Positions 3,087 to 45,166 are shown, counted from the first letter of the stretch. The stretch is DNA of 45,166 bases from a virus (IMGVR_UViG_3300044699_000097:1-45166); one strand, 5' to 3'. Notes: a model not told the origin generated them from the sequence alone. Numbers and translations: made by a program.

Positions 3087-3348
3087 ATGCCACGCAAAGC
3101 CAGCGTCCGGGGGTACCCCCGGCCAGCAAGCACCGCCGAAGGACCCCCGTGAACGTCGAGTCCAGCTGAACGTGTTGATGCCGCACTGGTATCGCGAACA
3201 GCTGTACGACTACTGCGACGAGCACGGCAAGTCGCTGCACTCCGTCGTCATCGGGGCGATGCTGGCGAAGATCCCGCCACGCAAGCCGCCGAAGGTCGGT
3301 GACTGGCCCCCGGAGACTACAAGTGGGGCTACGTCCCTCAACGAGTGA
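3087..3348 (+). CDS. Ribbon-helix-helix DNA-binding protein, probably leaderless
   Basis: After a basic start (MPRKASVRG) the frame breaks at a G5/C5 stretch near 3103-3120; removing one G joins it to an 80-residue frame ending at TGA 3346-3348. The joined protein has a beta strand RVQLNVLMP and two helices (HWYREQLYDYCDEHGKS and LHSVVIGAMLAKI), the layout of RHH repressors such as the Arc/CopG family, with a proline-rich tail. The ATG lies at the predicted transcription start, so the mRNA would have no leader, which is common in actinobacteria. As first gene after a strong promoter it is a good candidate for an autoregulator of the operon. The fold call is from pattern, not from a search. 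Confidence 0.7.
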
Positions 3349-11388: not shown

Positions 11389-11395
11389 GAGGATC

Positions 11396-16174: not shown

Positions 16175-16183
16175 GAGCACAAC

Positions 16184-16362
16184 ATGGCGAAGCCAGTGGG
16201 CAAGGTCAACCGAACCTCGTGAGGAACTCGACCGATAGGCGGGGGTACACCTCGCGGGCCGAACGCACTCCGGCAGTGACCAAGCGCGAACAGACGCGCG
16301 CCGTCTCCGACACCGTGTCGTCGATGCCCCGCAAGATCGCTGCCAAGGGCAAGGTGAAGTAG
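16184..16362 (+). CDS. Small basic protein between portal and scaffold, frameshifted
   Basis: An AGGAG site at about 16173 precedes ATG 16184, giving MAKPVGKVNRT; a slip near 16220 moves it to a frame reading YTSRAERTPAVTKREQTRA and ending KIAAKGKVK at TAG 16360-16362. The product would be about 59 residues and strongly basic, which fits a DNA- or scaffold-contacting head protein. Not recognised. Confidence 0.5.
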
Positions 16363-16436
16363 CCGCCATCTGTTCCATCCCTCGTGCGTGTGATTAACTT
16401 CCGAGTCAGTCACAGGAGCACGCCAGGAGGAACTCC

Positions 16437-17267: not shown

Positions 17268-17284
17268 CCTGAGAAAGGTGCCCC

Positions 17285-18389
17285 GTGGCAATCGCCTCGA
17301 ACCTTCCGCCCACGTGGGACAGCTTGCTGTCGACCACGATGAACAACTACCGCAAGCAGCTGACGGACAACATCTTCGGATCACGCCCGCTGCTGGAGTA
17401 CCTCCAGTCCAATGGCCGTGTCCGCACGGTTGACGGCGGCATCCAGATCGTCGAGCCGCTGCTCATCGGTCCCGGTGAGGCCGACTCGTACGGTCCCTGG
17501 AGCCAGATCGCGGTGAACCCGGTCGGCGGGATCACCGCCGCCACGTATCCGTGGCGCCAGCTGTACGCCACGATCATCATCTCCGGCCTCGAAGAGGCGC
17601 AGAACAACGGCAAGGAGCAGATGATCAACCTGCTCGACGCCAAGGTGATGCAGGCCGAGCAGACGCTGAAGGACATCCTCGTGCGGATGATCTACGGCAC
17701 CCGTGGAGCGCAGGCCAAGACGACGGACTTCGATCCGTTGACCACCCTGATCGACGCCACGCTCGCCGCTGGCGGGATCACCCCGGCTGCCGCTCCGGCC
17801 CCGGAGAACCTGTGGCGCTCGCCCACCTACAACGCCACGACGGGGACCGGCACCGACGCCAAGGGTGCGGCCATCTCCGGCCTGCCGTTCGGTGCGACGA
17901 TCGCCGGGGACGACCTGGAGTCGATCCTGCGGCGCATGTACCTGTTGGCCAGCGATGGCGGCTCGGACCACGTCGATGCGATCTTCGCCTCGTCCGACGT
18001 CTACGAGATGTACGAGGGCAGCCTCACCCCGCAGGTGCGCTACACCGATACGAGCAAGGCCAACCTCGGGTTCCAGAACCTGATGTTCAAGAACGTGCCG
18101 ATCTACTACGACCCGGATGCTCCGGTGGGTGGGGCGCTCGGCCTGAACTCGAAGTACGTCGGCCTGGCGATCCACTCGGACCGCAACTTCAAGCAGTCCC
18201 CGTTCACTGCCAACCTGTCCGGCACGGTCGCCCCTGGCGCTGCGTCGGCTGCTCCCTGGCATCGTCCCCGGTGCGCCTGCGGCGAACACGATGGACGCCC
18301 GCGTGTCGTTCATCACGACCTACGGCAACACCACGACGCGCGAGCGTCGCCGCAACTTCAAGCTGTCGGGCGTCGTCCCGACCCCCTGA
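17285..18389 (+). CDS. Major capsid protein (HK97-like), one frameshift
   Basis: GTG start with GAAAGG upstream. The sequence begins MAIASNLPPTWDSLLSTTMN and has an E-loop-like region, WRQLYATIIISGLEEAQNNG spine, and a beta-rich P/A domain (NVPIYYDPDAPVGG, NTMDARVSFITTYG) ending NFKLSGVVPTP, where the closing N-F-K-L-S-G-V motif is common in this capsid group. A slip near 18240 breaks the frame; corrected length is about 368 residues. It follows the scaffold and is the main shell protein. Confidence 0.88.
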
Positions 18390-18402: not shown

Positions 18403-18434
18403 GGGGCCCCAATTATGCGAATAATTGGGGCCCC
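18403..18434. repeat. Perfect 14-bp inverted repeat containing the palindromic unit
   Basis: The arms (18403-18416 and 18421-18434) pair perfectly, G4C4 next to the AT-rich core, with loop GCGA, a GNRA tetraloop when read on the plus strand. It lies 14 bases after the capsid stop and 15 bases before the next gene. No T-run follows. The core 18410-18427 is the same palindrome found at leftward gene ends. It may end or punctuate the highly expressed capsid transcript, or act as a protein site. Confidence 0.8.
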
Positions 18435-33741: not shown

Positions 33742-33772
33742 TGGGTACCAGTTCCACAACAAGGAGGAAGTA

Positions 33773-33991
33773 ATGGCCACGAGCACCACCACCGAAGTCG
33801 AGTCCACCGAGGAAGTCGAGCGCAACGAGGACGGCACCCTCGCGAACCCGACCGAGTCGGAGCAGGCACTCATCGACGCCCGGTCGGGCGATGTCGATCC
33901 GAGCGTCGACGCTCAGCTGGCGACGGGGGTGGCTCCTGCGTGGGCGACTGACCCGACGACCAACAAGAACGCCGCTCAGCGGTACGTCTGA
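33773..33991 (+). CDS. Small acidic protein
   Basis: A 72-residue protein with an excellent AAGGAGGAAG site at 33761-33770. It starts MATSTTTEVESTEEVERNED and is acidic throughout, ending TNKNAAQRYV. It ends with a TGATG junction to a membrane protein. No family recognised. Confidence 0.7.
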   Translation: MATSTTTEVESTEEVERNEDGTLANPTESEQALIDARSGDVDPSVDAQLATGVAPAWATDPTTNKNAAQRYV

Positions 33992-34170
33992 TGGTCGGCG
34001 TCGACGACGGCGTGGTGTCCGGGAACTTCACGTTCGCGGACATCATGTTCCTCGTCGCGTTCATCGTCTTCCTCGTCGGGGCGTTCCTCGCGTACGGGGC
34101 CAAGGCATTGTGGGCCACGCTCGTGGCCATCGGCTTGGCAGCGGTCAGCCTCGGGTGGTTCATGTTGTAG
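33991..34170 (+). CDS. Two-span membrane protein, holin-like
   Basis: A 59-residue protein with two hydrophobic segments ([17 protein letters not shown] and [20 protein letters not shown]) separated by YGAKA. Size and topology fit a small holin or other phage membrane protein at the end of the structural operon. Its last 11 bases overlap the end of the leftward collagen-like gene, so the two operons converge here. Confidence 0.6.
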
Positions 34171-34753
34171 TTGTGTCGACAGCGCACACGGTGATCAGCA
34201 GGTTCTGATCCTCGGGTTCGCGTTGATGCACGCTGACTTCTTCGAGGTGGAAACCGACAGGGCAGGACGGACCTACTGGTCCCGCCATTCCTGGGGGGCC
34301 AGTGGGTCCGGCCACTCCTGGCAGACCAGTGGCCCCCGGTTCTCCTTGCTGACCGGGCGGGCCAGCCGGTCCAGGCGGGCCTGTCGCTCCTGGCGGGCCC
34401 GTCGCGCCTGCCTCACCTGGCGCTCCATCTCTTCCCGGCGCTCCCGCAGGACCCGGCTCACCAGCAGGGCCGCGGGGACCGCCAACACCAGCCACACCAG
34501 CAGGACCCTGCCCACCGTCCTCACCGTCGACCCCGTCTGAACCAGCAGGACCTTGTCCACCGTCCGATCCTGGCACTCCCGCTGGTCCCTGTGGTCCGAC
34601 AGGACCTGGTGGACCTGGTGGCCCGACGGCGGGGATCGTGGTGACCGTGGTCGCTGGAACCAGTGGCGGTGCAGGCTCGGAGTTCTGCGTAGCCACACCG
34701 AGCGCCATCGCTGAGGCTGCCGAGCAGCACGCCAGGAAGACGATCGGGTTCAT
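34160..34753 (-). CDS. Secreted collagen-like protein
   Basis: A 197-residue protein. Residues 1-22 form a hydrophobic signal-like segment with CC at 9-10; then a T/P-rich spacer and about 38 G-X-Y triplets ([17 protein letters not shown] and on), closed by a globular end with two cysteines ([15 protein letters not shown] ... ITVCAV). Collagen repeats in phages are usually in fibres; here the gene is separate, has a signal-like start and lies in the lysis cassette. It may be exported to the cell surface or be a virion stalk. Start overlaps the upstream stop (ATGA). Confidence 0.75.
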
Positions 34754-35001
34754 GGTTCTTCATCGTGGTCCGGCCTTCGTTCCAGGCTGCGGGCCATCGA
34801 GGTTCGACCAGCGAGCAGTCCGAGCAAAGCCCCCAGTGTGGTTGAGATGAGGTTGACCAGGATCGCCCCGGCCTGCGTGGTGTCAGCCTGAGGATCGCGG
34901 ATCTCGATGATCGCAACGGTGACCCCGGCGCCGACGATCGAGAGCCCGACGACCAACGTCAGGATCAGCACCATCAGTTCGATCACCGAGCGATCCCGCA
35001 C
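34750..35001 (-). CDS. Holin-like membrane protein
   Basis: An 83-residue protein with two hydrophobic segments ([20 protein letters not shown] and [20 protein letters not shown]) and a charged, arginine-rich C-terminal tail. It immediately follows the amidase endolysin, which is the classic holin place. The GTG at 35001 has no clear ribosome site; a start inside the first helix is less likely because it would remove part of the span. Confidence 0.7.
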
Positions 35002-35011
35002 CCGACATCAG

Positions 35012-35942
35012 CTACGGATGATCCGGTAGAAGTCGCCCTCGACCACCGCCCGGTCGAGTCCTCGATCTCCTCGGGGTTGCCGAGCAGATGATGTCCCGCT
35101 TCAGCGTGTCCATCGACACCGGCTGCAGCTTGGTGTCAGGTGCGCTGGCGATGGTCGGTGAGGAACGGGTTGCCCTCCGGGCCGGGGCCGAACCACGTGA
35201 CGAACAGGTTGTGCACCGTGCCGTCAGCGAGCAACGGTCCCTGCCCGATGAACTGAGCGTTGCGACCGCTGACTCCGAGGATCACCGTGGCCATCTCTTC
35301 CTCCTGTGGGGTTGGGGGGTGCGTGCCTGCACGACGCACAGCTTCGTCACGGATCTCGCGGTAGTCCCACGTGCCCGAGGAGGTGACCGAGTGCGGCACC
35401 CACGGTCCCTGCACGGCGGTGTTGGTCGCTGGATCGATCTTCCTTGTCGGGGCATAGCCCTGGTGCGAGATCAGGTCGGTGACCTGGTTGCCGAACATCT
35501 CCGCCAACGCCTCGTTGCACCGGAAGTAGGCGTCGATCTGCACCTGCGGCCACGACTGCCCGACGCCGTTGTTCTGTGCCTCGATCCCCCACATCGTGGT
35601 GTTGCCCTGATCGACGGGGACGGTGCCCCGGCTGAACGTCGTCGGCCCGCCCTTACCTTGCGTGTTCGCTGCTCCGGCTGCGATCGGCCAGACAACACCG
35701 TCCCTGGCAAGGAGCATGTTGCCGATCGGTCGGTCCGGCGAACCGTTGATCATGTAGTTCAGATCGCTGTCGACCGAGGCGCTTGAGGCGGTGTGATGCC
35801 AGCAGACCGCCAACGGTGGAGCAGAGAACCCACCCGATGAGCGCGAGCGCCGTTCCCATCCCTCGTTGATGCTGTTGACTGCGCATGGCACTCCCGCCCC
35901 TTCGAGGACGTCGATCAACAGGTCGTAGTACAGGTGACCCAT
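35012..35942 (-). CDS. N-acetylmuramoyl-L-alanine amidase (endolysin), frameshifted end
   Basis: An Amidase_2-type enzyme that cleaves the bond between muramic acid and the first alanine of peptidoglycan. Visible zinc and catalytic features are VCWHHTAS (H49/H50), WGIEAQN (E121), ISHQGYAPTRKIDP (H160, K168, D170). The domain spans about residues 1-200; a C-terminal part (VILGVSGRNAQFIGQG ...) may bind the wall. Slips near 35135 and 35065 probably extend it to a TAG at 35012-35014 (about 310 residues). ATGA overlap with the gene upstream. It acts at host lysis. Confidence 0.9.
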
Positions 35943-36130
35943 CAGTCGCTCAACTCGCTGCGCAGCCTGTCGAGGTCGTCACGCAGACGTTCGAGCCGTT
36001 CGATGTACCAACCGTCGGGCCGGTCGATCAGCCAGTTCAACCGGCGGGCGAAGTTGAGCAGCCGCTGCCTCGGTGGATCGCTGGCGTCGTAGGCATCCTC
36101 GGGATCGGTGAGGTCGTTGTCCTCGGTCAC
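35942..36130 (-). CDS. Small charged coiled-coil protein
   Basis: A 62-residue protein, GTG start overlapping the previous TGA. After an acidic start (TEDNDLTDPEDAYDASDPP) it is one long charged helix (RLERLRDDLDRLRSELSD) with leucine spacing of a coiled coil. It is co-translated with the amidase by an ATGA overlap, so a role in lysis timing is possible but not shown. Confidence 0.65.
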   Translation of the reverse strand: MTEDNDLTDPEDAYDASDPPRQRLLNFARRLNWLIDRPDGWYIERLERLRDDLDRLRSELSD

Positions 36131-36282
36131 CGGGGCTTCCAGTCACGCTTGACCGCGGCGTTGGCTCCCTTGACCGCAGCGGCCGGGCTCTTGCCCGCCT
36201 TCTTCATCCCGAGGTACACGTGCTCCCACTGTCGCTTCTTCTTCGGCGTGTCCGCCTTCTTGGTGAACTCCTCGGCAGGCAT
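36127..36282 (-). CDS. Small basic protein
   Basis: A 51-residue protein starting MPAEEFTKKADTPKKKRQWE and ending ANAAVKRDWKPR, strongly basic. A GAGGAGG site lies just before the ATG and the stop overlaps the next GTG. Not recognised; could bind nucleic acid or be a lysis-cassette accessory. Confidence 0.65.
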   Translation of the reverse strand: MPAEEFTKKADTPKKKRQWEHVYLGMKKAGKSPAAAVKGANAAVKRDWKPR

Positions 36283-36291
36283 GGGTCCTCC

Positions 36292-36366
36292 TCAGATGCG
36301 ACGGACGAGCAGCACGATCAGGACGATGATCAAGATCAGCACGAGGAGCCCGCCACCGACGTACAT
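36292..36366 (-). CDS. 24-residue membrane micro-protein
   Basis: MYVGGG followed by an uninterrupted hydrophobic helix (LLVLILIIVLIVLLV) and RRI. A single-span peptide with inside-positive end. It is too short for most gene finders but sits in phase with the cassette, with good codon use and short spacing. It may assist lysis or membrane perturbation. Confidence 0.55.
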   Translation of the reverse strand: MYVGGGLLVLILIIVLIVLLVRRI

Positions 36367-36375
36367 GGACTGAGG

Positions 36376-36477
36376 CTAGTCCCTGCTCCCTGGCCAGGTC
36401 AGGAGCAGCCCGAAGCCGATGATGATGCACCACGCCGCGAACTCGCGAATGTATGAAGGGAACCAAATCTCCGCCAT
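36376..36477 (-). CDS. 33-residue membrane micro-protein
   Basis: MAEIWFPSYIREFAAW followed by CIIIGFGLLLTW and a short polar tail. One membrane span is likely. It is the first gene after the terminator at 36501-36529 and precedes the 24-residue membrane peptide by nine bases. Function unknown. Confidence 0.5.
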   Translation of the reverse strand: MAEIWFPSYIREFAAWCIIIGFGLLLTWPGSRD

Positions 36478-36500
36478 GACCTGATTCTGGACAAAGAAGA

Positions 36501-36529
36501 AGCCCCCCAGCGCTGGGCGCTGAGGGGCT
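36501..36529 (-). terminator. Leftward terminator hairpin
   Basis: On the minus strand a 12-base stem AGCCCCTCAGCG with its partner (one mismatch) and loop CCCAG is followed by TCTTCTTTG. This ends the unit containing the zinc proteins at 36535-37546 just after the stop of the gene at 36535. Confidence 0.75.
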
Positions 36530-36534
36530 GTTCT

Positions 36535-36729
36535 TCAGTCCTCCATTTCCTGCTGCATCACGTCGTAGGCACACATCTCACACATGTCCCCGTCGGTGGC
36601 TCGCCAGTACTGGCAGACCACACAGACCGGAACCTCGTTGCCGTTCTGGTCTGTGTACGTCGGCTTCTCCCTGTCTCGTGCTCGCTGTCTGATCGCTTCG
36701 ATGCGGTCACTCCATCCGAGTGCGCTCAC
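36535..36729 (-). CDS. Zinc-ribbon-like small protein
   Basis: A 64-residue protein (GTG start) with MSALGWSDRIEAIRQRARDR and then CVVCQYWRATDGDMCEMC, two CxxC pairs 11 residues apart. The start is preceded by AGGAG and by the leader word AACCAAC. Its GTG overlaps the upstream stop (GTGA). Probably binds zinc; role unknown. Confidence 0.7.
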   Translation of the reverse strand: MSALGWSDRIEAIRQRARDREKPTYTDQNGNEVPVCVVCQYWRATDGDMCEMCAYDVMQQEMED

Positions 36730-36854
36730 TTCCTCTCCTTGTTGGTTGCTGGGCATGACGCCTTGTGGATTCGCAGCACCGCCTCGATCGACATGCCACG
36801 GGGTGCACGAACCACCCCGTGGCAGTCACCACAGACGGCTTGCTGACCGGTCAC
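36726..36854 (-). CDS. Small Cys/His protein
   Basis: A 42-residue protein: CGDCHGVVRAPRGMSIEAVL then RIHKASCP. One CxxC plus H and C could form a single zinc finger. The GTG follows GGAGG and overlaps the preceding stop. Part of a chain of cysteine-rich mini-genes. Confidence 0.6.
   Translation of the reverse strand: MTGQQAVCGDCHGVVRAPRGMSIEAVLRIHKASCPATNKERK
36741..36747 (-). promoter_or_regulatory. AACCAAC leader word
   Basis: On the minus strand AACCAAC is followed by AAGGAGAGG and a GTG start 12 bases on (gene at 36535-36729). One of seven copies ahead of leftward starts. Confidence 0.65.
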
Positions 36855-37053
36855 CTGCCTCCGAACAGCAGGTCGAGCCGAGCGGGGATGACCCTCGTGT
36901 CGTTGCACGTGTTGCAGCAACGGTCACCCTCCCCGCCGAGCGGATCAGGGTTGTGCCCGTAGCCGCCCGGCTCGTCGTGCCACGGCGCGTGCCACGGTTC
37001 GCACGGCTCGCCGCACAGGCAGCATGGCGGGACCGAGTTCCGGGGCGCTCACT
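36851..37053 (-). CDS. Cysteine-rich small protein, one frameshift
   Basis: The clear part reads PPCCLCGEPCEPWHAPWHDE and DRCCNTCNDTRVIPARL, eight cysteines and several histidines, ending FGGR. No start lies in that frame; one extra C near 37040 would separate it from the GTG at 37053, which has AAGGAG upstream. About 66 residues. The CCxC...CCxxC pattern is that of a treble-clef or zinc-ribbon protein; I recall similar mini-proteins in actinophages. Confidence 0.6.
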
Positions 37054-37546
37054 CCTTCACCTCCGCCAGCTGCTTGGCCAGGTCGGTGCACTCGCCCATG
37101 ACGTAGGCCCAGTCCTTGTACGCCCTGGCCACGCGCCATACGACGGCTCGACGTCGAAGAGCCGGCTTGCTCTCGGCCTTGAGCCGCTCGTTCATCTTGC
37201 GCATGTCGGCGTCCATCCTCGGCGTGACGTCACCGAAGTGGGCGCAGTCGAAGCCGAACCACCAGATCTCAGCCTCACGCCCATCCTCGGGGATGTGGCA
37301 GATGTCGTTGTCCTCATCACAGGCAGCTGCGTAGGTCAGCCCACCGTGGACGTCGACGTGGATGACGTCGACGTCGTTGTAGTCCCTGCCGTGCCACGGG
37401 TGCGACGGCGGGACACCGACGTAGCCGCACAGTGCGCCACTCGGGCCGCGGTTGATCATGCAGTCGAGACCAGTGGTGGGATCGACCCACACCGCATGGT
37501 CCTCCTCGTTGTTCCAGGGGCCTTCGCCCCAGTCTTCGTGGTTCAT
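37049..37546 (-). CDS. Conserved phage protein with HGGLTYA and WWFGFDCAH motifs
   Basis: A 165-residue protein, ATG 37546 preceded by GGAGAG and the AACCAAC leader; a longer in-frame ATG at 37579 is less likely because it reads through the leader. Motifs: ALCGYVGVPPSHPWHGRDY, VDVHGGLTYAAACDED, IWWFGFDCAHFGD. I recognise this pattern from many phage genomes, where function is unknown. A C-terminal basic helix follows. Confidence 0.75.
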   Translation of the reverse strand: MNHEDWGEGPWNNEEDHAVWVDPTTGLDCMINRGPSGALCGYVGVPPSHPWHGRDYNDVDVIHVDVHGGLTYAAACDEDNDICHIPEDGREAEIWWFGFDCAHFGDVTPRMDADMRKMNERLKAESKPALRRRAVVWRVARAYKDWAYVMGECTDLAKQLAEVKE

Positions 37547-37555
37547 CTCTCTCCT

Positions 37556-37570
37556 TGGTTGTTGGTTGTT
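37556..37570 (-). promoter_or_regulatory. AACCAAC leader word
   Basis: On the minus strand an AAC/CAA-rich stretch with AACCAAC leads into AAGGAGAGAG and the ATG at 37546 of the HGGLTYA-family gene. Confidence 0.65.
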
Positions 37571-37571
37571 G

Positions 37572-38012
37572 TCACTCATCGGAGATGCCTCCGAGGAGAT
37601 CCTTCAGGGAACGTAGGTCTGAGGCGAGGCGCTCGGCTCGGGCGATTGCGTCATCCCGCTCCTTCTGCATCACCTCGACCTTGCGCTCGGCCACCATGAT
37701 GCGACGCTCCGCATCCTTGATGGAGTCCTGGCCGACCGCCTTCTGCACGTCCTGCACGATCCGGCGGAGACGGCGTAGCTCTTGGGCCATGTCCTTGCGT
37801 GGCGTGTGCACCTCGGCCGCGACGTAGTCCGGGATGACGTGGACGATCGTCCGCTTCATGTTGTTGGTTGCCTCGGCCTCGCCAGCCTTGACGTGCACCT
37901 GCCAGTGCGAGCCGCAGCCACGCTTGGACTCGAACTCCAACCCGCAGTGCTTGCAGCGGTAGGTGATCTGCTCATCCCCGTCAGCCACCAGCTGGCGGAT
38001 GATCGTGTCCAT
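37572..38012 (-). CDS. C2H2 zinc-finger / coiled-coil protein
   Basis: A 146-residue frame with YRCKHCGLEFESKRGCGSHW and QVH, a C2H2-type finger (CxxC with two H), then a long coiled coil (ELRRLRRIVQDVQKAVGQDS, AERRIMVAERKVEVMQKERD). An internal ATG at 37859, preceded by the leader word AACCAAC without a ribosome site, may be a second start. The start at 38012 has no ribosome site, so the finger may instead be the C-terminus of the upstream gene after a one-base slip near 38020. The zinc finger itself is convincing. Confidence 0.6.
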   Translation of the reverse strand: MDTIIRQLVADGDEQITYRCKHCGLEFESKRGCGSHWQVHVKAGEAEATNNMKRTIVHVIPDYVAAEVHTPRKDMAQELRRLRRIVQDVQKAVGQDSIKDAERRIMVAERKVEVMQKERDDAIARAERLASDLRSLKDLLGGISDE

Positions 38013-38560
38013 GATCGGGAGATGTACTGACCCCCATCACTGCTCGCCATGTTGAGGGTGGGCTCGACCCGCTCCGTCGGAACGAACTCGACCGACTGCG
38101 TCTCGCCATCGAGAGCAACCGATGCTCGGGCTTCCTCAATTATCGGAATGATTGGCTCGGGCTCAGGCTCCTCCTCGATCTCCAGCGTCTTCGGGTTGGT
38201 GCTGGCCAGGACGCCCACCTTGGAGATGAGCACCTGGGCGTGAGCCTTGGACATCCCCGTCTGCTTGACGATGACTTCGAGTAGCTCCGTCGTCGGGAGA
38301 CGCCCCTCGGAGTGACCGAGGATGTTGGCCAGCGTCGACCAGAACACCGACTGGCGTACGCCGGTGTCGGTCGGGATGTTGCGAGTGATCCCGCTCCGAG
38401 AGCGCAGCCGAGCGGGAGCACCGCGCTGCTGCACCAGGTTCCAGCCGAGAGCCACCGCCAGCAGGACGACACCTTGCATCCCCTTGTCGGAGATGTTCGA
38501 CAGGTCGACCGGCTTCAGCTGATCGACCATGATCCACTCGTCAGGAAAGTCGGTGGTCAT
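37856..38560 (-). CDS. Unknown protein, C-terminal frame doubtful
   Basis: Starts MTTDFPDEWIMVDQLKPVDL; residues about 25-120 are helical with a possible winged-helix/HTH part (LPTTELLEVIVKQTGMSKAH), then an acidic hinge (EIEEEPEPEPIIPIIEE). Up to about 38025 the frame is convincing; beyond, it overlaps the zinc-finger frame by 157 bases and reads as low-quality sequence ending RPRQPTT, with a TGA that meets ATG 37859 as ATGA. Either the protein ends here or it truly continues into the zinc finger. Confidence 0.55.
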   Translation of the reverse strand: MTTDFPDEWIMVDQLKPVDLSNISDKGMQGVVLLAVALGWNLVQQRGAPARLRSRSGITRNIPTDTGVRQSVFWSTLANILGHSEGRLPTTELLEVIVKQTGMSKAHAQVLISKVGVLASTNPKTLEIEEEPEPEPIIPIIEEARASVALDGETQSVEFVPTERVEPTLNMASSDGGQYISRSWTRSSASWWLTGMSRSPTAASTAGWSSSPSVAAARTGRCTSRLARPRQPTT

Positions 38561-39031
38561 GCGTCAGCCTCCCGGTCGGGAAGCTGCCGGTGTTGAGGTA
38601 GTGGTCGAACTCCTCGTCGTCCATCGAGATGATCCGTGGCGGCGGAACCGTGAACTCGTTGGCGTGCGGAATCACGTCCTGACCGAGCGACTCGGCGTCG
38701 GCCACCACCCGCTGCCACAGGCGACACAGGGCTGCGAGTCCTTCGACGGCCCGCTCCGAGGGAGGCAGGGTGTTGCCCTCTCCGTCCGGCTCCGCTGCAC
38801 ACAGCACGACGGGACCGAACAGCGCCCGAGCCATGAACATCGACGCGGGGGCGTTGAACTGCAACTCCTCAGCAGCGACTCGTCGTCGATGTACATGCCA
38901 ACCTCGTCCGTGCGGACGAAGTCGAACGTGGCGTCGTCGAGCCCTTCTTTGATCCCTTCATAGGTGCAAGGCACCCCCTTGTAGTGGCCGTCTGGTCGGA
39001 CGGCGAGCAGTTTCTTCATGGGCATAGCCAT
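38541..39031 (-). CDS. DUF3846-like protein, one frameshift
   Basis: The ATG at 39031 has AAAGAG and the AACCAAC leader upstream. The protein starts MAMPMKKLLAVRPDGHYKGV, has EVGMYIDDESLL and, after a slip near 38872, LQFNAPASMFMARALFGPVV and a C-terminal helical part ending in the 17-base overlap with the next gene. The order (LAVRPDG, mYidDE, N..As..a, GPVVL) matches the DUF3846 family common in actinobacteria and their phages, function unknown. About 163 residues. Confidence 0.7.
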
Positions 39032-39047
39032 TTCTTGTTCTCTTTCT

Positions 39048-39054
39048 GTTGGTT
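39048..39054 (-). promoter_or_regulatory. AACCAAC leader word
   Basis: On the minus strand AACCAAC lies 17 bases before the ATG at 39031 of the DUF3846-like gene, with AAAGAG between, and 48 bases after a palindromic unit. Confidence 0.6.
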
Positions 39055-39101
39055 GTCGGTCGGGGAGGTCGCCGCAATGCCGAAGCACCACGACGACCCC
39101 C

Positions 39102-39119
39102 CAATTATTTGGATAATTG
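39102..39119. repeat. Palindromic unit copy (TT variant)
   Basis: CAATTATTTGGATAATTG: seven-base arms CAATTAT/ATAATTG around TTGG. It begins two bases past the stop of the leftward gene at 39122-39507 and 70 bases before the next leftward start. A weak hairpin (CACCACG/CGTGGTG) overlaps the gene's last codons. Confidence 0.85.
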
Positions 39120-39121
39120 AG

Positions 39122-39507
39122 TCACCACGAGGACAGATACGTGTACTGCCGTGGTGGTCCCGGATGGCGAGCCGCCTCGTAGGCGAGGATGCTCACCAGT
39201 GCGTTGTGCACGTCCCGACGTCACCGAAGTAGTACTCGTCGTAGTCGGTGTTGCCGAAGAAGAACCTGCCCATCGTGGGCAACAACTCCGGCCCCAGTTC
39301 GGGGTTGTCGAGCACCCGGCGACACGTCTGTGCCAGCCCGGCCATCGCTTCGAGGTGGAAGGGGATGTACTCGCAGTTGGTCTCGCGACCCTCGTTGAGA
39401 TGATCCTCCACCCACTTGTGCAGGAAGTTGACCTTGCGGAAGTAGGCCACCTCGCAGTAGCTATCAGGCTCAGGTCCCTTGCTGAAGAGGTACTGGTCGA
39501 GGCCCAT
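39122..39507 (-). CDS. MGLDxYL-family conserved phage protein, one frameshift
   Basis: ATG overlaps the upstream stop (ATGA). Starts MGLDQYLFSKG, then CEVAYFRKVNFLHKWVEDHL, PELLPTMGRFFFGNTDYDEY, and after a slip near 39225 continues VHNALVSILAYEAARHPGPP and ends LSSW at TGA 39122-39124. The MGLD start, R-K-x-N-x-(L/I)-H-K-W and FFFG-x-T-x-Y-D-E-(W/Y) motifs are those of a widespread phage and prophage family of unknown function, which also ends in SSW, supporting the corrected frame. Confidence 0.75.
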
Positions 39508-39986
39508 CACCACCACTTCCCTTGCCGAGGCGTGTCGGGGAACTCACGGTCAAGCTCGTCCTTGAACTGACCGACAAGATGCTCGACGGCTTCGTCGTTG
39601 ATGGGCAGGATCGGCCCCCGAGCGCAGATGTGCCCACGCTCGTCGATGTAGGCGTCGATGTTGGCGCCACGCATGACGTAGACCACCGCCTTGTCGAACG
39701 CTGCCGAGAGTTCGGGGCTCTTGTTCTCGAAGTACTCGTCGTTGTCGCGCGGGTCGATCTGCAGGAGGAAGCCGTGCTTGTGGAACAGCAGCGTCACCCG
39801 GTTGGCCTGCAAGGCGTCAGCCTCGAAGCCCTGGGCGATGAGGCAGGCGCGGAAGGCGATCGAGATGTCGTTGCCTTCGTTGCCGATCAGCGCTTGCAGG
39901 ATCTCCAGGACCTGATCAACGTCACCGTCGGCCAGTAGCCGTCGGATCACGCGGTCGGCTCGTCCTTCCATGAATCCGTCGTTCAT
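39507..39986 (-). CDS. Unknown 159-residue protein
   Basis: Starts MNDGFMEGRADRVIRRLLAD; ATG preceded by GGAGAG and the AACCAAC leader at 40002-40008. The N-terminal third is helical, the middle reads IAFRACLIAQGFEADALQAN and VTLLFHKHGFLLQIDPRDND, suggesting an alpha/beta fold, and the C-terminus is acidic. I do not recognise it. Intact frame. Confidence 0.75.
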   Translation of the reverse strand: MNDGFMEGRADRVIRRLLADGDVDQVLEILQALIGNEGNDISIAFRACLIAQGFEADALQANRVTLLFHKHGFLLQIDPRDNDEYFENKSPELSAAFDKAVVYVMRGANIDAYIDERGHICARGPILPINDEAVEHLVGQFKDELDREFPDTPRQGKWW

Positions 39987-40001
39987 GTACTCTCCGTTCT
40001 T

Positions 40002-40008
40002 GTTGGTT
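40002..40008 (-). promoter_or_regulatory. AACCAAC leader word
   Basis: On the minus strand AACCAAC is followed by AAGAACGGAGAG and the ATG at 39986. A strong hairpin lies just upstream (40027-40057). Confidence 0.65.
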
Positions 40009-40026
40009 GTTGGTATGGATGCGCCG

Positions 40027-40057
40027 CACGGGGCAGGGAGCGATCCCCTGCCCCGTG
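40027..40057 (-). terminator. Strong hairpin after AAA+ gene
   Basis: A perfect 12-base stem CACGGGGCAGGG/CCCTGCCCCGTG with a seven-base loop, ten bases beyond the stop of the leftward AAA+ gene. No T-run follows on either strand, so it is terminator-like or an mRNA-stabilising hairpin. Confidence 0.6.
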
Positions 40058-40066
40058 GACGTACTG

Positions 40067-41620
40067 CTAGTTGGTGGTGATCTCGAAGCGCTCGTCACCA
40101 CTGTCGATGTGGATGAGCTTCGCTCCGTTGATCCGGCTCTCGATGGCGTCTCGACCGCCGAGTGCATGGTGCCGTAGTCGAGGCTGGCCTCGACCGTGAT
40201 CTCGCTGGCCATCTCCGAGACGATCTCACGCATCGACTGGTCGAGCGGCGGGAGTTCGGGCTTGTGCTCCATCGCAGCCAGCAACATGCGGTGCTGAGTG
40301 CGCAGCGAGTTTGAGCGAGAACACCAGACGCTCGGTCGTGATGTCGCCAGGAGCGACACGTCGACGGTGCTTGGCGACCGAGAACCTGACGGCTCCCTCC
40401 ATCCCCTTCACGAACGAACGCAGGCATGTAGCCCTCGGTCGCTGCGTACACGGCGTCGAAGTCGACGTCGTCGGCCAGTCCCTCGCCACAGATGAGGCGA
40501 GTGAGCTTCTCGACACCGGGACGATCCATCGCCCCGATCTCGATGACCCGGTGAACCGGCCAGGTCGGAACATCCCGGCGGGGATCTTGTCGAGGTAGTT
40601 GGTCGTGTACACGGCCAGCACCTCGTGGTCCTTGGCGTCGGCACCGTCGATCCGATCGAGCAGCTGTGATACCGCTCGGTCGTCACGCAGGTTGACGACG
40701 GTCTCGATGTCCTCACCGAAGATGAGGCACGGGGCGTACATCTGCGCCAGCTGGATCATCTCGAACGGGCTGTCCCCTGGTGCGGACATCAGTGCCGACC
40801 ACCCGTTGCGCACGGCGACGAGGGCAGCGATCTTGCCCATCCCCGTCTTGCCACCACCGAACTCACCGGCGAGGAGCACGGCACGCTTGCCCGCGATGTC
40901 CTCCTCGCTGAGCAGGTCACGGTCACGCATCACCGAGAAGATGAACGCTTCCGCCTCCTCCCACACCTGCTCGGTGAAGACGAACTTCTCCGGCTCGATC
41001 AGGAGCGGTGTCGATGAACCCACCCTTGCCGTCGAACGCCTTGCCCCGGTAGATGGAGTGGTTGTCGAGGAACCGCTGGATGTCGTCGAAGAACCCGACG
41101 ACCCCATCCTCGTGCTTGCGCTTGTGTTGGGCGACGAGATGGCACATCTTGCCGTCCTTGGTCGCACCGACACTGAGTACCCCACCTTCGAGGCCGGGCA
41201 GCACCATGTTCGAGCCGAACGGCACGTTGACCTTCTGCTCCATCGCGGGTCGGCTTGCCGTGCTCGTCGGGTGGCCATCGGTCCAGCCGATCGAGATGCT
41301 CACCTCCTGCGGTGGGTTGGCTCGGCTGCCCTTCGACTGGACGTAGCCGAACCGATCCTTCAGGGTGCGGTAGACGGCGTAGGCACCGTCGTACGGGCGG
41401 TACTTGAACGTGCGCTGGAGATGATCATCTCCTCCTGCGCCTCGGCGTAGCGCATCAGGTCACGCACGCCCTCGATGACGTTGCCCTTGTACACGGCGGG
41501 GATGTTCCACGCTGTGCCACTGAAGGTCATGGTGTCGTCACGAGTGACGGCGCCTCCGATGATCGCCAGCTGCTGCCATGCGGCAGCGGCCAGCTTCTGC
41601 TGAGTCAGTTCATCAGGCAC
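40067..41620 (-). CDS. AAA+ ATPase, frameshifted
   Basis: GTG 41620 follows GGAGAG and the AACCAAC leader. The N-terminal half (KGNVIEGVRDLMRYAEAQEE, VGFFDDIQRFLDNHSIYRGK) is not recognised. The ATPase core has Walker A GEFGGGKTG, a Walker B-like LIFGEDIE, sensor-1 AVYTTNY, and MFRPGRF with the arginine finger, the second region of homology of classic AAA proteins, then a helical lid (LTRLICGEGLADDVDFD). Slips near 41420, 41010, 40560, 40425, 40310 and 40150 break the frame; corrected length is about 517 residues, ending FEITTN. It probably remodels a protein or DNA complex; the substrate is unknown. Confidence 0.8.
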
Positions 41621-41632
41621 TTGCTCTCCTTG

Positions 41633-41639
41633 GTTGGTT
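41633..41639 (-). promoter_or_regulatory. AACCAAC leader word
   Basis: On the minus strand AACCAAC is followed by CAAGGAGAG and the GTG at 41620 of the AAA+ gene. Confidence 0.65.
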
Positions 41640-41652
41640 GTTGGTCGTGCGG

Positions 41653-41949
41653 TCATTCGTCGTCGAAGCCAGGTAGCCCGTCGAGTTCGGTGCGCTCGTC
41701 GAGTTCTGGATCGCCGTGGTCACCGAGGTAGGTGGCCTTGGTCCGGGTTGCTCGGTCGTACACCTCGTAGCCGTACATCCAGTGCCCTGCTTCGGAGGAC
41801 TGGAGGTACACGACGAGCCGTCGCACACGGCCCGATCGTGCTTCGAGGAGCAGGTATGGGCTGCCGTCACGTTGTCCGATCTCGACAACACGGAGCCCCG
41901 CATCCTGGAAGATGGGTGGCACCCGAGGGATTTCGGGTGGGTCGTTCAC
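41653..41949 (-). CDS. Unknown small protein
   Basis: A 98-residue protein with GTG start after AGGAGG. It is beta-rich (GLRVVEIGQRDGSPYLLLEA, RVRRLVVYLQSSEAGHWMYG) with an acidic C-terminal tail (DELDG...FDDE type). A small single-domain fold. It sits between the terminator at 41977-42004 and the AAA+ gene and has no relative I recognise. Confidence 0.7.
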   Translation of the reverse strand: MNDPPEIPRVPPIFQDAGLRVVEIGQRDGSPYLLLEARSGRVRRLVVYLQSSEAGHWMYGYEVYDRATRTKATYLGDHGDPELDERTELDGLPGFDDE

Positions 41950-41976
41950 TGAATAACCTCCTGAATAAATGGGTCA

Positions 41977-42004
41977 AGCCCCCCCACCCGAAGGTGAGGG
42001 GGCT
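41977..42004 (-). terminator. Leftward terminator with UUCG loop
   Basis: On the minus strand AGCCCCCTCACC pairs with GGTGGGGGGGCT (one mismatch) around loop TTCG closed by C-G, the very stable C(UUCG)G tetraloop. A T-containing ATTTATT lies downstream. It follows the palindrome at 42014-42035. Confidence 0.7.
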
Positions 42005-42013
42005 CGCTAACAA

Positions 42014-42035
42014 CTCAATTATGCGGATAATTGAG
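42014..42035. repeat. Palindromic unit copy (GC variant), extended arms
   Basis: CTCAATTAT GCGG ATAATTGAG, nine-base perfect arms. The core 42016-42033 is the shared 18-base unit. It begins six bases beyond the stop of the leftward membrane micro-gene at 42042 and precedes the UUCG-loop terminator. Confidence 0.88.
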
Positions 42036-42041
42036 CTTCGG

Positions 42042-42176
42042 TCAGCCGCAGGCTTTCAGCAGCATCGCGATGAAGAGGATGATCATCAACCATCCTCCGA
42101 AGGTGGCAGCGCCAGCACCGACTCGGTCGTCGAGGTTGCGCTGCGGGTCATGGCCAGGTGAGGGAGGTTCAGCCAC
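42042..42176 (-). CDS. 44-residue membrane micro-protein
   Basis: GTG start inside the previous gene's last codons. Polar start (AEPPSPGHDPQRNLDDRV) then a single hydrophobic span (GGWLMIILFIAMLLKACG). Good codon use and overlap with the upstream gene support it. Unknown function, probable membrane peptide. Confidence 0.55.
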   Translation of the reverse strand: MAEPPSPGHDPQRNLDDRVGAGAATFGGWLMIILFIAMLLKACG

Positions 42177-42375
42177 AGCGGTGCCTCCTCGTGCGTGGGC
42201 CCACGATCAGCTTCGAGCGTGGGATGTACAGCTGGCCGGTGTATGGGTCCTTGGTGACCGCCGGTACTTGTCGGTAGATGTCCAGAATCATCTCGGCGAC
42301 GACGATGGCGATGGTGGCGAAAACGGCAGCGGCCATCAGCCACAGAATCGCCGCCACCCTGTCGTTGGGCGTCAT
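42169..42375 (-). CDS. Single-span membrane protein
   Basis: A 68-residue protein: MTPNDRVAAIL then a hydrophobic span (WLMAAAVFATIAIVVAEMIL) and a soluble tail with TKDPYTGQLYIPRSKLIVGP and an arginine-rich end. ATG overlaps the upstream stop. An indel close to the end could alter the last residues. Unknown function. Confidence 0.65.
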   Translation of the reverse strand: MTPNDRVAAILWLMAAAVFATIAIVVAEMILDIYRQVPAVTKDPYTGQLYIPRSKLIVGPRTRRHRCG

Positions 42376-42533
42376 GACTTGCCTCCGTGGTGCGTCTCGC
42401 AGTGCGCGGCGGCAGCCTCGATGATGTCGGGGATCAGCTGACTGTTGATCTTGAAGAACGAGCGCTTGCACACGCTGCACCACAAGGACAGGTTGTCGCC
42501 CCGCACGCGGATGTTGTGCAGGTCGACGATCAT
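42372..42533 (-). CDS. Small Cys/His zinc-finger-like protein
   Basis: A 53-residue protein with WCSVCKRSFFKIN, then a helix (IPDIIEAAAAHCETHH). CxxC and a C-x-x-H-H group would form one C2H2/C2HC finger. ATG overlaps the preceding stop (ATGA). Function unknown; may bind DNA or RNA. Confidence 0.65.
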   Translation of the reverse strand: MIVDLHNIRVRGDNLSLWCSVCKRSFFKINSQLIPDIIEAAAAHCETHHGGKS

Positions 42534-42622
42534 GACCACCACCGCGTTCCGTAGTACCAAGCGATGGTGCTGATCCAGCCCATCCAGATGAGCACGAGCA
42601 TGTCGTCGACCAGCCTCTTCAT
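42530..42622 (-). CDS. 30-residue membrane micro-protein
   Basis: MKRLVDD followed by a hydrophobic tryptophan-rich segment (MLVLIWMGWISTIAWYY) and GTRWWS. Both ends overlap neighbours by four bases (ATGA), which strongly supports translation. Probable single-span membrane peptide. Confidence 0.6.
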   Translation of the reverse strand: MKRLVDDMLVLIWMGWISTIAWYYGTRWWS

Positions 42623-42885
42623 GGCCGCACCTCACGCAGCCGTGTATCGAGACGGCGAACGAGGTGACCGAGCGTCGTGGCCACCGCAGCCATCTCCGCC
42701 ATCTGGTGGTCGTCCGACTGTGGGTCGACCAGGGTGGAGATGAGCAGGCAGGCCGTGGAGGTGATCACCTCGGCCCCACGCAGCGCTTCGGGTGACTCGC
42801 CCAGGTCGGCGAGCACGGCGGCGACGATGTCGTCCATCGCCCCCATGTAGACCTCGGCCCGAGCGAGAAGCTCTGCCTCGTTCAT
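42619..42885 (-). CDS. Helical protein, unknown
   Basis: An 88-residue all-helical protein starting MNEAELLARAEVYMGAMDDI and ending LVRRLDTRLREVRP. No cysteines or membrane spans beyond a mildly hydrophobic helix (VITSTACLLISTLV). Overlaps both neighbours by four bases. Not recognised. Confidence 0.65.
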   Translation of the reverse strand: MNEAELLARAEVYMGAMDDIVAAVLADLGESPEALRGAEVITSTACLLISTLVDPQSDDHQMAEMAAVATTLGHLVRRLDTRLREVRP

Positions 42886-43336
42886 GACGTGCTCCAGGCC
42901 GAGTAGCCGACGACGTCGAACAGTGCCTTGGTGGCGCAGGCATGGCGGCGTTGATCGCCAGGCCCATCGGCGTCCCGGTACGAGTACACGCCACAGGCGT
43001 GGTATCGGTCGACCAGACGGTGATCACGGAGGTGCAGGGACACGTTGAGTTGCCACCATCCGACGCAGCACGAGGTACGTACGCCGGTCTCAAGGCGGCA
43101 GTTGGACTCACGCCAGCCGATCTGGTCGAAGCGAGCAGGCAGACCTACTGCCGCGCGGTAGTAGTGCATCTCGTCGCAGTCGGAGGCGAAGGTCGGCACT
43201 GAGGTGGTCTCAGGCACTGCGGTGGGTGGGTCGACACGCTCGGCGGGGACGTCGGCGGTGACCGGCACGTTGATGTCTGGTGGCAGGTCGAGCGTGGACG
43301 GGATGAACGCAGGAGCAGGGACAGGATGATGTGCAT
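42882..43336 (-). CDS. Secreted lytic-transglycosylase-like protein, one frameshift
   Basis: ATG 43336 has GAAAGG upstream. It starts MHIILSLLLP, a signal-like segment; a slip near 43300 joins it to a P/V/T-rich spacer and then a domain with IGWRESNC, CCVGWWQLNVSLHLRD and ATKALFDVVGYSAWS. The R-E-S-(N)-C with downstream G-W-W-Q-L-N resembles SLT/transglycosylase domains, in which this glutamate is catalytic. It would cleave peptidoglycan glycan strands outside the membrane. About 151 residues. Alternative: a non-enzymatic wall-binding relative. Confidence 0.6.
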
Positions 43337-43373
43337 GTAGGGAAGCCTTTCAGCAGGTTGACAAGGGGTATAC

Positions 43374-43404
43374 GCTCGCCAGCAACGCGGACGTGCTGGC
43401 GAGC
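43374..43404. repeat. Perfect 11-bp inverted repeat
   Basis: GCTCGCCAGCA and TGCTGGCGAGC separated by nine bases, 38 bases upstream of the transglycosylase-like gene start. GTATACC lies next to it on the minus strand and might be a -10 element. It could be an operator or a second hairpin ending the preceding unit. Confidence 0.55.
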
Positions 43405-43425
43405 GGTGCTCTTGGGGAACGACAA

Positions 43426-43463
43426 AGCCCCCACGCACCGACCGAAGCCGATACGTGGGGGCT
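43426..43463 (-). terminator. Leftward terminator hairpin
   Basis: A perfect ten-base stem AGCCCCCACG/CGTGGGGGCT around an 18-base loop that can itself fold, followed on the minus strand by TTTGTCGTT. It ends the unit containing the gene at 43500-43995, after the palindrome. Confidence 0.7.
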
Positions 43464-43473
43464 GTTGCCGATC

Positions 43474-43491
43474 CAATTATCTGGATAATTG
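43474..43491. repeat. Palindromic unit copy (CT variant)
   Basis: CAATTATCTGGATAATTG, an eight-base perfect inverted repeat with a two-base centre (TG). It lies eight bases beyond the stop of the leftward gene at 43500 and ten bases before the terminator stem. Confidence 0.88.
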
Positions 43492-43499
43492 AGCGACGC

Positions 43500-43995
43500 T
43501 CAGAAGGTCAAGCGCTCCATGACGTTGACCAGGTGACGCAGCGAGTCGAAGGTGTCCTGGTCGAAGGTGTTGTCGCACACCTCGTCGAGCAGCACCTTGC
43601 AGGCACCAGCGATCGCCTCGATGGCGGGAGACCCCGGCGGAGACCGTTGGCTTGGCCTCCTTCGGGGCGTAGGTGCCCATCATCTTCTTGGTCGGCGCCT
43701 TCTTGGTCGGACGCATGGCGTCAGCGAACTTGGCCTCCATCCGGGCAAGAGCGTCGATGCACCGGTTGGTGTAGGCGACAGTGTCACCGCCAAGGAACTC
43801 ACGCTGACGGCCGACGAAGGCATCGAGGTCCTTGACGACGTCGTGGAGCACGTCGGGGCGCATGAAGTTCTTCTGGCCGAGATGGGTGGCGATGGTGGTG
43901 ACCATCTCTCGGTCGGTACCTGCGGGCAGGTCGTGGGCAACAGCGCTGAGGTGCTGCTTGATCGTGGCGAGTCCGAGTGGACGTCCTGTGGGCAT
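43500..43995 (-). CDS. Unknown protein, one frameshift
   Basis: ATG 43995 follows AGGAGA and the AACCAAC leader. Starts MPTGRPLGLATIKQHLSAVA, mostly helical (DVLHDVVKDLDAFVGRQREF, YTNRCIDALARMEAKFADAM), then a lysine-rich hinge (PTKKAPTKKMMG). A slip near 43630 leads to IEAIAGACKVLLDEVCDNTF and an end at MERLTF. About 165 residues. Not recognised. Confidence 0.65.
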
Positions 43996-44013
43996 GATGT
44001 TTCTCCTGTGTGT

Positions 44014-44020
44014 GTTGGTT
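44014..44020 (-). promoter_or_regulatory. AACCAAC leader word
   Basis: On the minus strand AACCAAC is followed by ACACACAGGAGAAAC and the ATG at 43995. Confidence 0.65.
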
Positions 44021-44196
44021 GATACCCCGGCGGACTTGCCGGAGCAGACGGTGACCGTGCATTGGCTCGGTCGATATGTGGGTTTGGTGGCGCACGCCGC
44101 AGCGATTTCGAGGCTGTGATGCCCGTACCTCGTGGATGAGGTGGCACATTGCTGCGTGCTCGGCTGGATCGTGAGCGTCGAATGCATCGGACCAGT

Positions 44197-44214
44197 CAAT
44201 TATCTGGATAATTG
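44197..44214. repeat. Palindromic unit copy (CT variant)
   Basis: CAATTATCTGGATAATTG, identical to the copy at 43474. It lies just past the terminator of the rightmost gene and 202 bases before the next leftward start. On the minus strand its edge forms TTGACT. The interval 43996-44196 has no convincing gene. Confidence 0.88.
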
Positions 44215-44218
44215 GGCA

Positions 44219-44265
44219 AAGCAAAGGCCCGGCTTTCTGATTATCCAGAAAGCCGAGCCTTGCTT
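44219..44265 (-). terminator. Long bidirectional terminator hairpin
   Basis: Arms of about 20 bases (44219-44239 and 44246-44265) pair with few mismatches around loop ATTATC. On the minus strand it is followed by TTTGCTTTG. It begins 16 bases beyond the stop of the rightmost gene. Its centre shares ATTATCCAGA with the palindromic unit. Confidence 0.8.
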
Positions 44266-44281
44266 ACTCACTGCCTATATC

Positions 44282-45094
44282 TCAGGCTGACTTAGCCTTA
44301 CCCTTTGCATTGACCTTTGTCCCGATATCCGAGACATTGGAAGGCTTGGGCATTGGGAATGGGCCGTTGTTTGCCTCAACTGCCTTAGCAGCCTCATCCA
44401 CCATAACGCCGATCAATCGGATATCCTTAGCCGTCATATTGCGGAGCTTAGCGATATCCAAACCACACTGAGAAAGGAGCTTCTCAATTGCCGTGGTTTG
44501 CGGCGTGGTTGCCTTCCATCCGGCATTACGGCCAGGCTTATCCTGAAATGCACCGTGCATTCCGAACTTACCAACTGCAATGCGCAATTCCTTACGCTCC
44601 TTCACCGTATCGGAAACCGATGAACCACTACCCTTAGCAGGCTTAGTGGCATCATATCCGACCTTATGAGTCTTGATAATGGCGGTGAGATATGGAACCA
44701 GTTTCTGCAGGTTCTTGCAATCCTTGCCATCATTCTTAGGATCAGCCTTGAAATTGCTGAGAGCCTGATTCATAAAGGCTTCGCCTCGCAGGCAAACATA
44801 ATCCTCCTGCAATGCCATTGCCGAACGGCCCCGATATGACTCACCGGTCGCATTCGTGAATCCGAATGCCTTGCAAATGGCGCTGAATTCCGTGCCAAAC
44901 ATATTGGCATTCGGATCACCAATACGGACCTTATAGTAGGTCCAAAGGATGTTTGCGAAATAGCGCTTATCCTTAGCGGTATCGGTAATGAGGCGGAGGA
45001 ATGATTCCCGCTCATTCTTCTCACCAATTGCCCAAGCCTTATCCATTGCCTTCTGTTGTGCCACAGTAAGCGGCACATATGTGATATCCGGCAT
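44282..45094 (-). CDS. Unknown 270-residue protein with outlier codon use
   Basis: Starts MPDITYVPLTVAQQKAMDKA, ends AKGKAKSA; an intact frame. ATG preceded by AAAGGATAG and the AACCAAC leader. Sequence is mainly alpha/beta with YFANILWTYYKVRIG, FSAICKAFGFTNATGESYRG and a lysine-rich C-terminus; no motif I recognise. It is visibly less GC-rich than everything else, yet every Lys codon I read is AAG and every Asp codon GAT, whereas the rest of the window prefers GAC. That suggests recent transfer or selection for a separate expression regime. It has its own terminator. Confidence 0.8.
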   Translation of the reverse strand: MPDITYVPLTVAQQKAMDKAWAIGEKNERESFLRLITDTAKDKRYFANILWTYYKVRIGDPNANMFGTEFSAICKAFGFTNATGESYRGRSAMALQEDYVCLRGEAFMNQALSNFKADPKNDGKDCKNLQKLVPYLTAIIKTHKVGYDATKPAKGSGSSVSDTVKERKELRIAVGKFGMHGAFQDKPGRNAGWKATTPQTTAIEKLLSQCGLDIAKLRNMTAKDIRLIGVMVDEAAKAVEANNGPFPMPKPSNVSDIGTKVNAKGKAKSA

Positions 45095-45109
45095 TACCCT
45101 ATCCTTTGT

Positions 45110-45116
45110 GTTGGTT
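45110..45116 (-). promoter_or_regulatory. AACCAAC leader word
   Basis: On the minus strand AACCAAC is followed by ACAAAGGATAG and the ATG at 45094. A weak TTGATA element lies about 25 bases upstream. Confidence 0.6.
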
Positions 45117-45152
45117 GTTGCTATTGATTAGTGGCTCTCTTATCAACCCTCC

Positions 45153-45166
45153 CAATTATTGGGATA
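45153..45166. repeat. Palindromic unit copy cut by the window end
   Basis: CAATTATTGGGATA, the first 14 of 18 bases of the unit. It lies 58 bases upstream of the rightmost leftward gene, so a further gene end presumably lies beyond the window, or the contig was broken at this repeat. Confidence 0.7.

Follow-up and report, generated by a model that had tools for sequence, protein, structure and literature searches.

A CA-rich leader word upstream of the ribosome-binding site recurs at early gene starts in a phage lineage

Why should one short word made only of A and C stand ahead of several different genes in a single arm of a phage genome? The question is raised by the IMG/VR virus record IMGVR_UViG_3300044699_000097, where AACCAAC precedes a series of leftward gene starts; the whole stretch analysed (45,166 bp, G+C 65%) is referred to below as the window. 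Its terminase, portal, capsid and other structural genes are read rightward, and the AACCAAC leaders lie in the leftward, non-structural (early) arm, the structural arm having none. The window has no close isolate: the capsid and AAA proteins of isolates resemble its own only distantly, a 9.9-kb rightward stretch compared with phage records by megablast gave no match, and neither did a prophage and host search using the AAA protein. A relative used here, G001 (IMGVR_UViG_3300032205_000006), is colinear with the window at ~88% nucleotide identity. Many genes that are frameshifted in the window record (the AAA gene at 41620-40067, the DUF3846 gene at 38560-39031, a small gene at 3087-3348, and others) are intact in G001, which suggests indel errors in the assembly, and because the window is so rich in frameshifts, gene structure was taken from G001. 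Gene starts came from a simple purpose-written caller followed by inspection, and start counts are approximate. Searches with the portal, AAA, phrog_2164 and 39986-type proteins yielded further relatives, including G018 (IMGVR_UViG_3300025925_000007; AAA 53% and portal 70% at the amino acid level; its positions are given in L270 coordinates), L279 (IMGVR_UViG_3300014326_000012) and L274 (IMGVR_UViG_3300020125_000179).

AACCAAC occurs nine times in the window, always on the leftward strand and never on the plus strand, while 100 dinucleotide shuffles of the window gave a mean of 2.4 copies and a maximum of 8, none reaching nine. The absence of rightward copies runs counter to an equal frequency in rightward intergenic sequence, one of the outcomes which the preliminary description of this locus had named as refuting its proposal of a shared leader. 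Seven of the nine copies lie directly upstream of named starts; given ~25 leftward starts, chance would put only 0.15 of the nine within 30 nt of one (binomial p ~1e-11). The remaining two (37863-37869 and 10770-10776) are within coding sequence.

All seven leaders are on the minus strand. The outermost, GCAACAACCAACACAAAGGATAGGGTA (45095..45121), precedes ATG 45094, which opens a gene for a 270-aa protein with no assigned function, and its counterpart at G001 185 reads CAACTACCAAC. It is followed by TATCAACCAACACACACAGGAGAAACATC (43996..44024) before ATG 43995, matched at G001 1282; by CACGACCAACAACCAACCAAGGAGAGCAA (41621..41649) before GTG 41620, the start of an AAA ATPase, matched at G001 3553, G018 9953 and L279 2802; by TACCAACAACCAACAAGAACGGAGAGTAC (39987..40015), which stands past a strong GC hairpin and before ATG 39986, with counterparts at G001 5186, G018 11531 and L279 4419; by CGACAACCAACAGAAAGAGAACAAGAA (39032..39058) before ATG 39031 of the DUF3846 protein, matched at G001 6141 and L279 5415; and by GACAACAACCAACAACCAAGGAGAGAG (37547..37573) before ATG 37546 of a phrog_2164 protein, the orthologs of which in G018, L274, L279, G004 and G008 also carry it. 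The seventh, AGCAACCAACAAGGAGAGGAA (36730..36750) before GTG 36729, is doubtful. This start overlaps (GTGA) an upstream open reading frame (ORF) of 43 codons, in which the word is coding and forms the last codons (A-T-N-K-E-R-K-stop), and in G001 the word is degraded to ACTCAAC although its surroundings are near-identical. Because of this overlap and loss we count six firm cases.

The build of the leaders varies: AAC/CAAC units number one to three, and the end of the word is 7-18 nt from the start codon. AACCAAC and GGAGAG had been described as a pair at all seven starts; the word is indeed found at each, the doubtful copy included, but exact GGAGAG follows it only at 36729, 37546, 39986 and 41620. 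The other three starts have AGGAGAAA (43995), AAAGGATAGG (45094) and AAAGAGAAC (39031), the last without GGAG. The word lies upstream of the Shine-Dalgarno (SD) sequence, as first reported, and is present also where the SD is weak (39031, 45094), which excludes SD similarity alone as its explanation.

The word is also found in related phages, namely G001, G018, L279, L274, G004, G008 and L278. In G001 it is kept at six of the seven orthologous starts despite substitutions, indels and changed numbers of AAC/CAAC units. The early strand of G018 holds 11 copies (1.0 expected), eight of them within 35 nt of starts, and its orthologs of 41620, 39986 and 37546 all have the leader. Against 0.5 expected in each, L279 has nine copies, located at six starts, and L274 has five; the opposite strand has none in either genome. 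Orthologs of the AAA, 39986 and phrog_2164 genes thus retain the word although their flanks have diverged, and the phrog_2164 start is accompanied by the leader in G004, G008 and L278 as well; at this start in G004, G008, L278 and L279 the final codons of the preceding gene spell out the leader, as they do at a coupled start in G018. A related form occurs in the distant L066 (IMGVR_UViG_3300042396_000644; terminase region matching at 50% aa), where CACCTACCAAC-AGGAG precedes three minus-strand starts (7016, 5556 and 4423). To judge from these genomes, the leader is real, common to a phage lineage and kept through divergence. Separately, the fragment L084 (IMGVR_UViG_3300040806_001993), which has hardly any protein similarity to G001, has AACCAACC leaders in tandem, and in several cases a repeated TTGTTCG..TA.C, placed after the preceding stop codon, leads straight into the leader.

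What the leader follows is a gene's position. In G001 the word is present at six of eight uncoupled early starts and at none of ten coupled ones (p=0.0015), so that the earlier statement that genes inside coupled chains lack it holds as a strong trend. The same contrast can be seen within families. In the family of window gene 38560, the members in the window, G001 and L279 are coupled and have no leader, but the G018 member (12099) is the first gene of a unit and has one. Window gene 42885 and its G001 counterpart are again coupled and without leader, but the L279 member of this family (1844) is a stand-alone gene that does have it. Conversely, the leader precedes the DUF3846 gene in three genomes (the window, G001 and L279) and is missing in G018, where that gene is relocated (7646). 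Across these comparisons the leader is seen to track gene position, not gene family, and the uncoupled/coupled contrast together with the switches within families is the pattern expected of a signal for de novo translation initiation.

We therefore favour the reading, to which we would assign a probability of roughly 0.6, that (CC)AACAACCAAC and the adjacent SD form a modular CA-rich enhancer or standby leader for translation initiation of early genes. The leader would be transcribed within a 5' untranslated region (5' UTR) or a short intergenic stretch, so that the SD would be preceded immediately by some 15-25 nt of CA-rich RNA with little tendency to fold, where the 30S platform, probably with ribosomal protein S1, could find a standby or enhancer site and translation would be raised. 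It would serve genes that load ribosomes de novo and not by coupling to the upstream gene, and would be especially useful past GC-rich hairpins in a genome of this composition. Such a leader would work with any downstream gene and could therefore stay while genes are swapped behind it, and be re-used at many starts. There is precedent for both halves of this proposal: ACA- or CA-rich elements just upstream of the SD act as strong, loosely positioned enhancers in Salmonella (PMC3879156), and according to the standby-site model the rate of translation is set by the length of the single strand that separates a hairpin from the SD (PMC3936740).

The physical character of the leaders is consistent with this. 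Those of the window are 81% A+C, and mean fold energy is -13.6 kcal/mol with the leader compared to -18.7 when random genomic fragments are substituted for it. Strict A/C runs of at least 10 are enriched before early starts in the window and G001, and not in G010 or G012. When all early starts are compared with all late starts, a set that includes miscalled starts, A+C does not differ (p=0.46) and fold energy does (p=0.009). At 39986 the leader lies between the strong hairpin and the SD, and the orthologous start in G018 has a different hairpin in the same arrangement. Of the options first put forward for this word, an unstructured translation enhancer is thus favoured by its position, composition, conservation in relatives and link to uncoupled starts, and these also bear out the proposed likeness in logic, with a different sequence, to the start-associated sequences (SAS) of mycobacteriophages.

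Several observations weigh against a simple enhancer or standby leader. The uncoupled leftward starts 43336 and 41949 have no word, and the absence of the word from coupled starts is not absolute, exceptions being 36729 in the window and starts in G008, G004, L279, L278 and G018 (13241). The computed accessibility of SD and start codon is not improved (0.605 vs 0.589). Only loosely CA-rich leaders occur in the distant relatives G010, G012 and G016 (portal 57-58% aa): exact AACCAAC was not found at their called starts, and several early starts in this group have other CA-rich leaders, for example ACAACGAACCAAGGAG, ATCACAACCAGACAAGGAG and CCACACACAGA. Finally, the exact word is kept beyond what composition predicts (11% expected per leader), which makes base composition alone an incomplete explanation and exceeds the needs of an unstructured pad.

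Since the ACCAAC core is conserved across phages beyond composition, it may be recognised specifically, be it by S1, by some other protein or by an RNA. The word could accordingly be a recognition element through which a trans-acting factor co-regulates early-gene translation, for example an RNA-binding protein (of phage or host origin) or a small RNA (sRNA) rich in GU; in Salmonella the GU-rich sRNA GcvB does target CA-rich elements that lie upstream of the SD (PMC3879156). We regard this as unlikely, although it fares best among the alternatives. No candidate binding factor was found, the copy number and spacing of the word are loose, and searches for known RNA families and tRNAs found none, there being no Rfam match. 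The complementary GTTGGTT does not occur on the leftward strand of the window (one copy each in G001 and G018), so that a phage sRNA matching all 7 nt is not encoded on that strand.

An improbable alternative is that the word is mainly a by-product of mosaicism, a short conserved recombination junction at gene starts, with translation depending on the SD alone. Homology does break precisely at the start codon, past the leader: at window 37546 and G001 7671 the leader is the same and the genes behind it are unrelated, and at G008 297 and G018 13241 the sequence upstream of the leader (gaactcaatccaac) is common and the genes that follow differ. Near-identical leaders likewise precede unrelated genes at window 43995 and G018 7141. 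However, leader flanks within one genome are dissimilar, which excludes long recent duplications as the source of the copies, and a word that survives indels and unit changes, is encoded even at coupled starts, and tracks uncoupled starts within families is indicative of function. The enhancer or standby leader set out above would itself accommodate these cassette-like boundaries.

The preliminary description had also offered a transcription start signal, and we consider it very improbable that the word is an initially transcribed sequence or part of a promoter. Two relatives give some encouragement: one of the L066 leaders lies no more than ~15 nt below a TTGACA-N17-TATGGT promoter, that is, within a 5' UTR, and similar leaders in L084 follow the repeated TTGTTCG motif. 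In the early arm, however, promoter-like sites upstream are at shuffle level (2 vs 1.7 in the window, 3 vs 2.0 in G001), although a clear promoter is present elsewhere in the window (3052-3080), and no -35 and -10 hexamers at fixed distance upstream of the word were found in the window or the G001 arm. Three window copies are at or inside the end of the upstream gene, those at 37546 and 41620 starting at most 8 nt past its stop codon and that at 36729 lying within it, and the distance to the start codon stays at 7-18 nt. Chance is excluded by the shuffles and the positional binomial test, and a general bacterial or viral trait by wider searches, as AACAACCAACAAGGAG..ATG in 257 Gb gave 96 stretches scattered over many phyla and few of 120 viral stretches with ACCAACAAGGAG..ATG were multi-copy (e.g. 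L084, L066, L118).

The leftward arm contains a second repeated element, the 18-bp palindrome CAATTATCCNNATAATTG, found at unit boundaries and in the gap after the capsid gene. An operator-like copy, CAATTATCTGGATAATTG (44197..44214), lies upstream of the unit at 43995 (G001 1066), and another at 43474..43491 stands before a terminator-like hairpin (G001 1794), G018 having in the corresponding position (7552) a palindrome of another sequence. Further copies are CAATTATGCGGATAATTG at 42016..42033, upstream of 41949 (G001 3139; the same region of G018 has one at 9203); CAATTATTTGGATAATTG at 39102..39119, upstream of the 39031 leader (G001 6051); and, within a longer hairpin (GGGGCCCCAATTATGCGAATAATTGGGGCCCC), 18410..18427 after the major capsid gene (G001 25678). 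A degenerate form, CAATTATCGGAATGATTG (38137..38154), is in coding sequence, the orthologous gene of G018 containing that phage's own palindrome, and a copy upstream of the 45094 leader (45153..45166) is cut by the end of the record and complete at G001 109. The G018 palindrome, ATCCGGAANTTCCGGAT, has seven exact copies in several corresponding places including that after the capsid gene; G008 has four copies of CTAGTGCANNTGCACTAG, and G004 has CTACTACACGTGTAGTAG after its capsid gene, so that different palindromes occupy the capsid-gene junction in these three phages.

Many intergenic copies, common positions and a phage-specific sequence, as found here, are what is expected of operators or stoperators for a protein that changes specificity, and the palindromes may thus constitute a second, operator- or stoperator-like system. 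They resemble the stoperators of cluster A phages (PMC6550527) and the 18-bp inverted repeats of cluster EG phages (PMC7302621) in being repeated intergenic sites whose sequence varies between relatives. They differ from the former, which are asymmetric and have an identified repressor, in being perfect dyads with a putative binder only, and from the latter, which lie 14-22 bp before starts in Microbacterium phages, in usually lying further away. By inference only, the candidate binder is a small Arc/CopG-like (ribbon-helix-helix, RHH) protein encoded at 3087..3348 on the plus strand, in a gene that is frameshifted in the window. The promoter of this gene, of canonical sigma-70 type with TTGACA (3052) and TATACT (3075) separated by 17 nt, is followed by its ATG 6 nt past the -10, and a leaderless mRNA is likely. 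Homologs are found in G001 (41064, minus strand) and G018 (18735, minus strand), with an N-terminal strand that varies between phages; no Pfam RHH match was obtained for the G001 and G014 homologs. The leader word is the same across phages and the palindromes are not, which makes it probable that different machinery acts on each of the two elements. A regulon beside this phage-specific operator system, in which a factor recognising AACCAAC would switch translation of the whole early arm on and off together, is a notion that we find slightly more doubtful than recognition by such a factor in general.

Two further features of the window were recorded. The first gene of the early arm (44282-45094, minus strand; 270 aa) has no Pfam or PHROGs family match, a G+C visibly below that of its neighbours and a codon use unlike theirs. 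The structural arm includes very long ORFs in G001 (10567-18111, 2514 aa) and G010 (31299-41549, 3416 aa), the counterpart of which is fragmented in the window around 26908-33741.

Among known systems two are closest in arrangement. One is the SAS of cluster K mycobacteriophages (Pope 2011, PMC3203893), a fixed 13-mer (GGGATAGGAGCCC) that includes the SD and is separated from the start by 3-7 bp; the other is an SAS-like motif, GGGAAAGGACCCC, in the cluster EF phages of Microbacterium (PMC7302621). Like these, the window word is repeated, in one orientation, start-associated, confined to non-structural genes and placed before differing gene families, in several phages. Unlike them it consists solely of C and A, precedes the SD and is variable in unit number and spacing, and it lacks the fused 17-bp inverted repeat of the extended SAS (ESAS). 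As neither the 13-bp sequence nor its position at the SD is found here, the word does not belong to the SAS family and is better described as a differently built start-associated leader. In composition it is closer to the CA-rich enhancers of yifK, dppA and gltI, which are GcvB targets (PMC3879156): the leaders are likewise CA-rich, unstructured and directly upstream of the SD with no strict spacing. Those elements, however, belong to single host genes and have a tested effect, whereas here one word, known from sequence alone, extends over a phage early arm. At 39986 and its G018 ortholog the leader, placed as it is between a hairpin and the SD, may correspond to a ribosome standby site (PMC3936740), although the computed SD accessibility is unchanged by the leaders; standby sites need no particular sequence, in contrast to the conserved word seen here.

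No description of the AACCAAC word was found in the literature searched. To our knowledge, start-associated repeats have been described in actinobacteriophages since 2011 with no established mechanism. The leader of the window and its relatives would represent a different design among them: its word lies outside the SD, contains no base but C and A, is modular, and occurs or not within one family depending on coupling. With such a design, initiation of translation would be set apart both from pairing with the SD and from transcription, so that the question can be put to the test with a few reporter constructs, and if the proposal is correct it would provide a compact leader for expression in high-GC bacteria.

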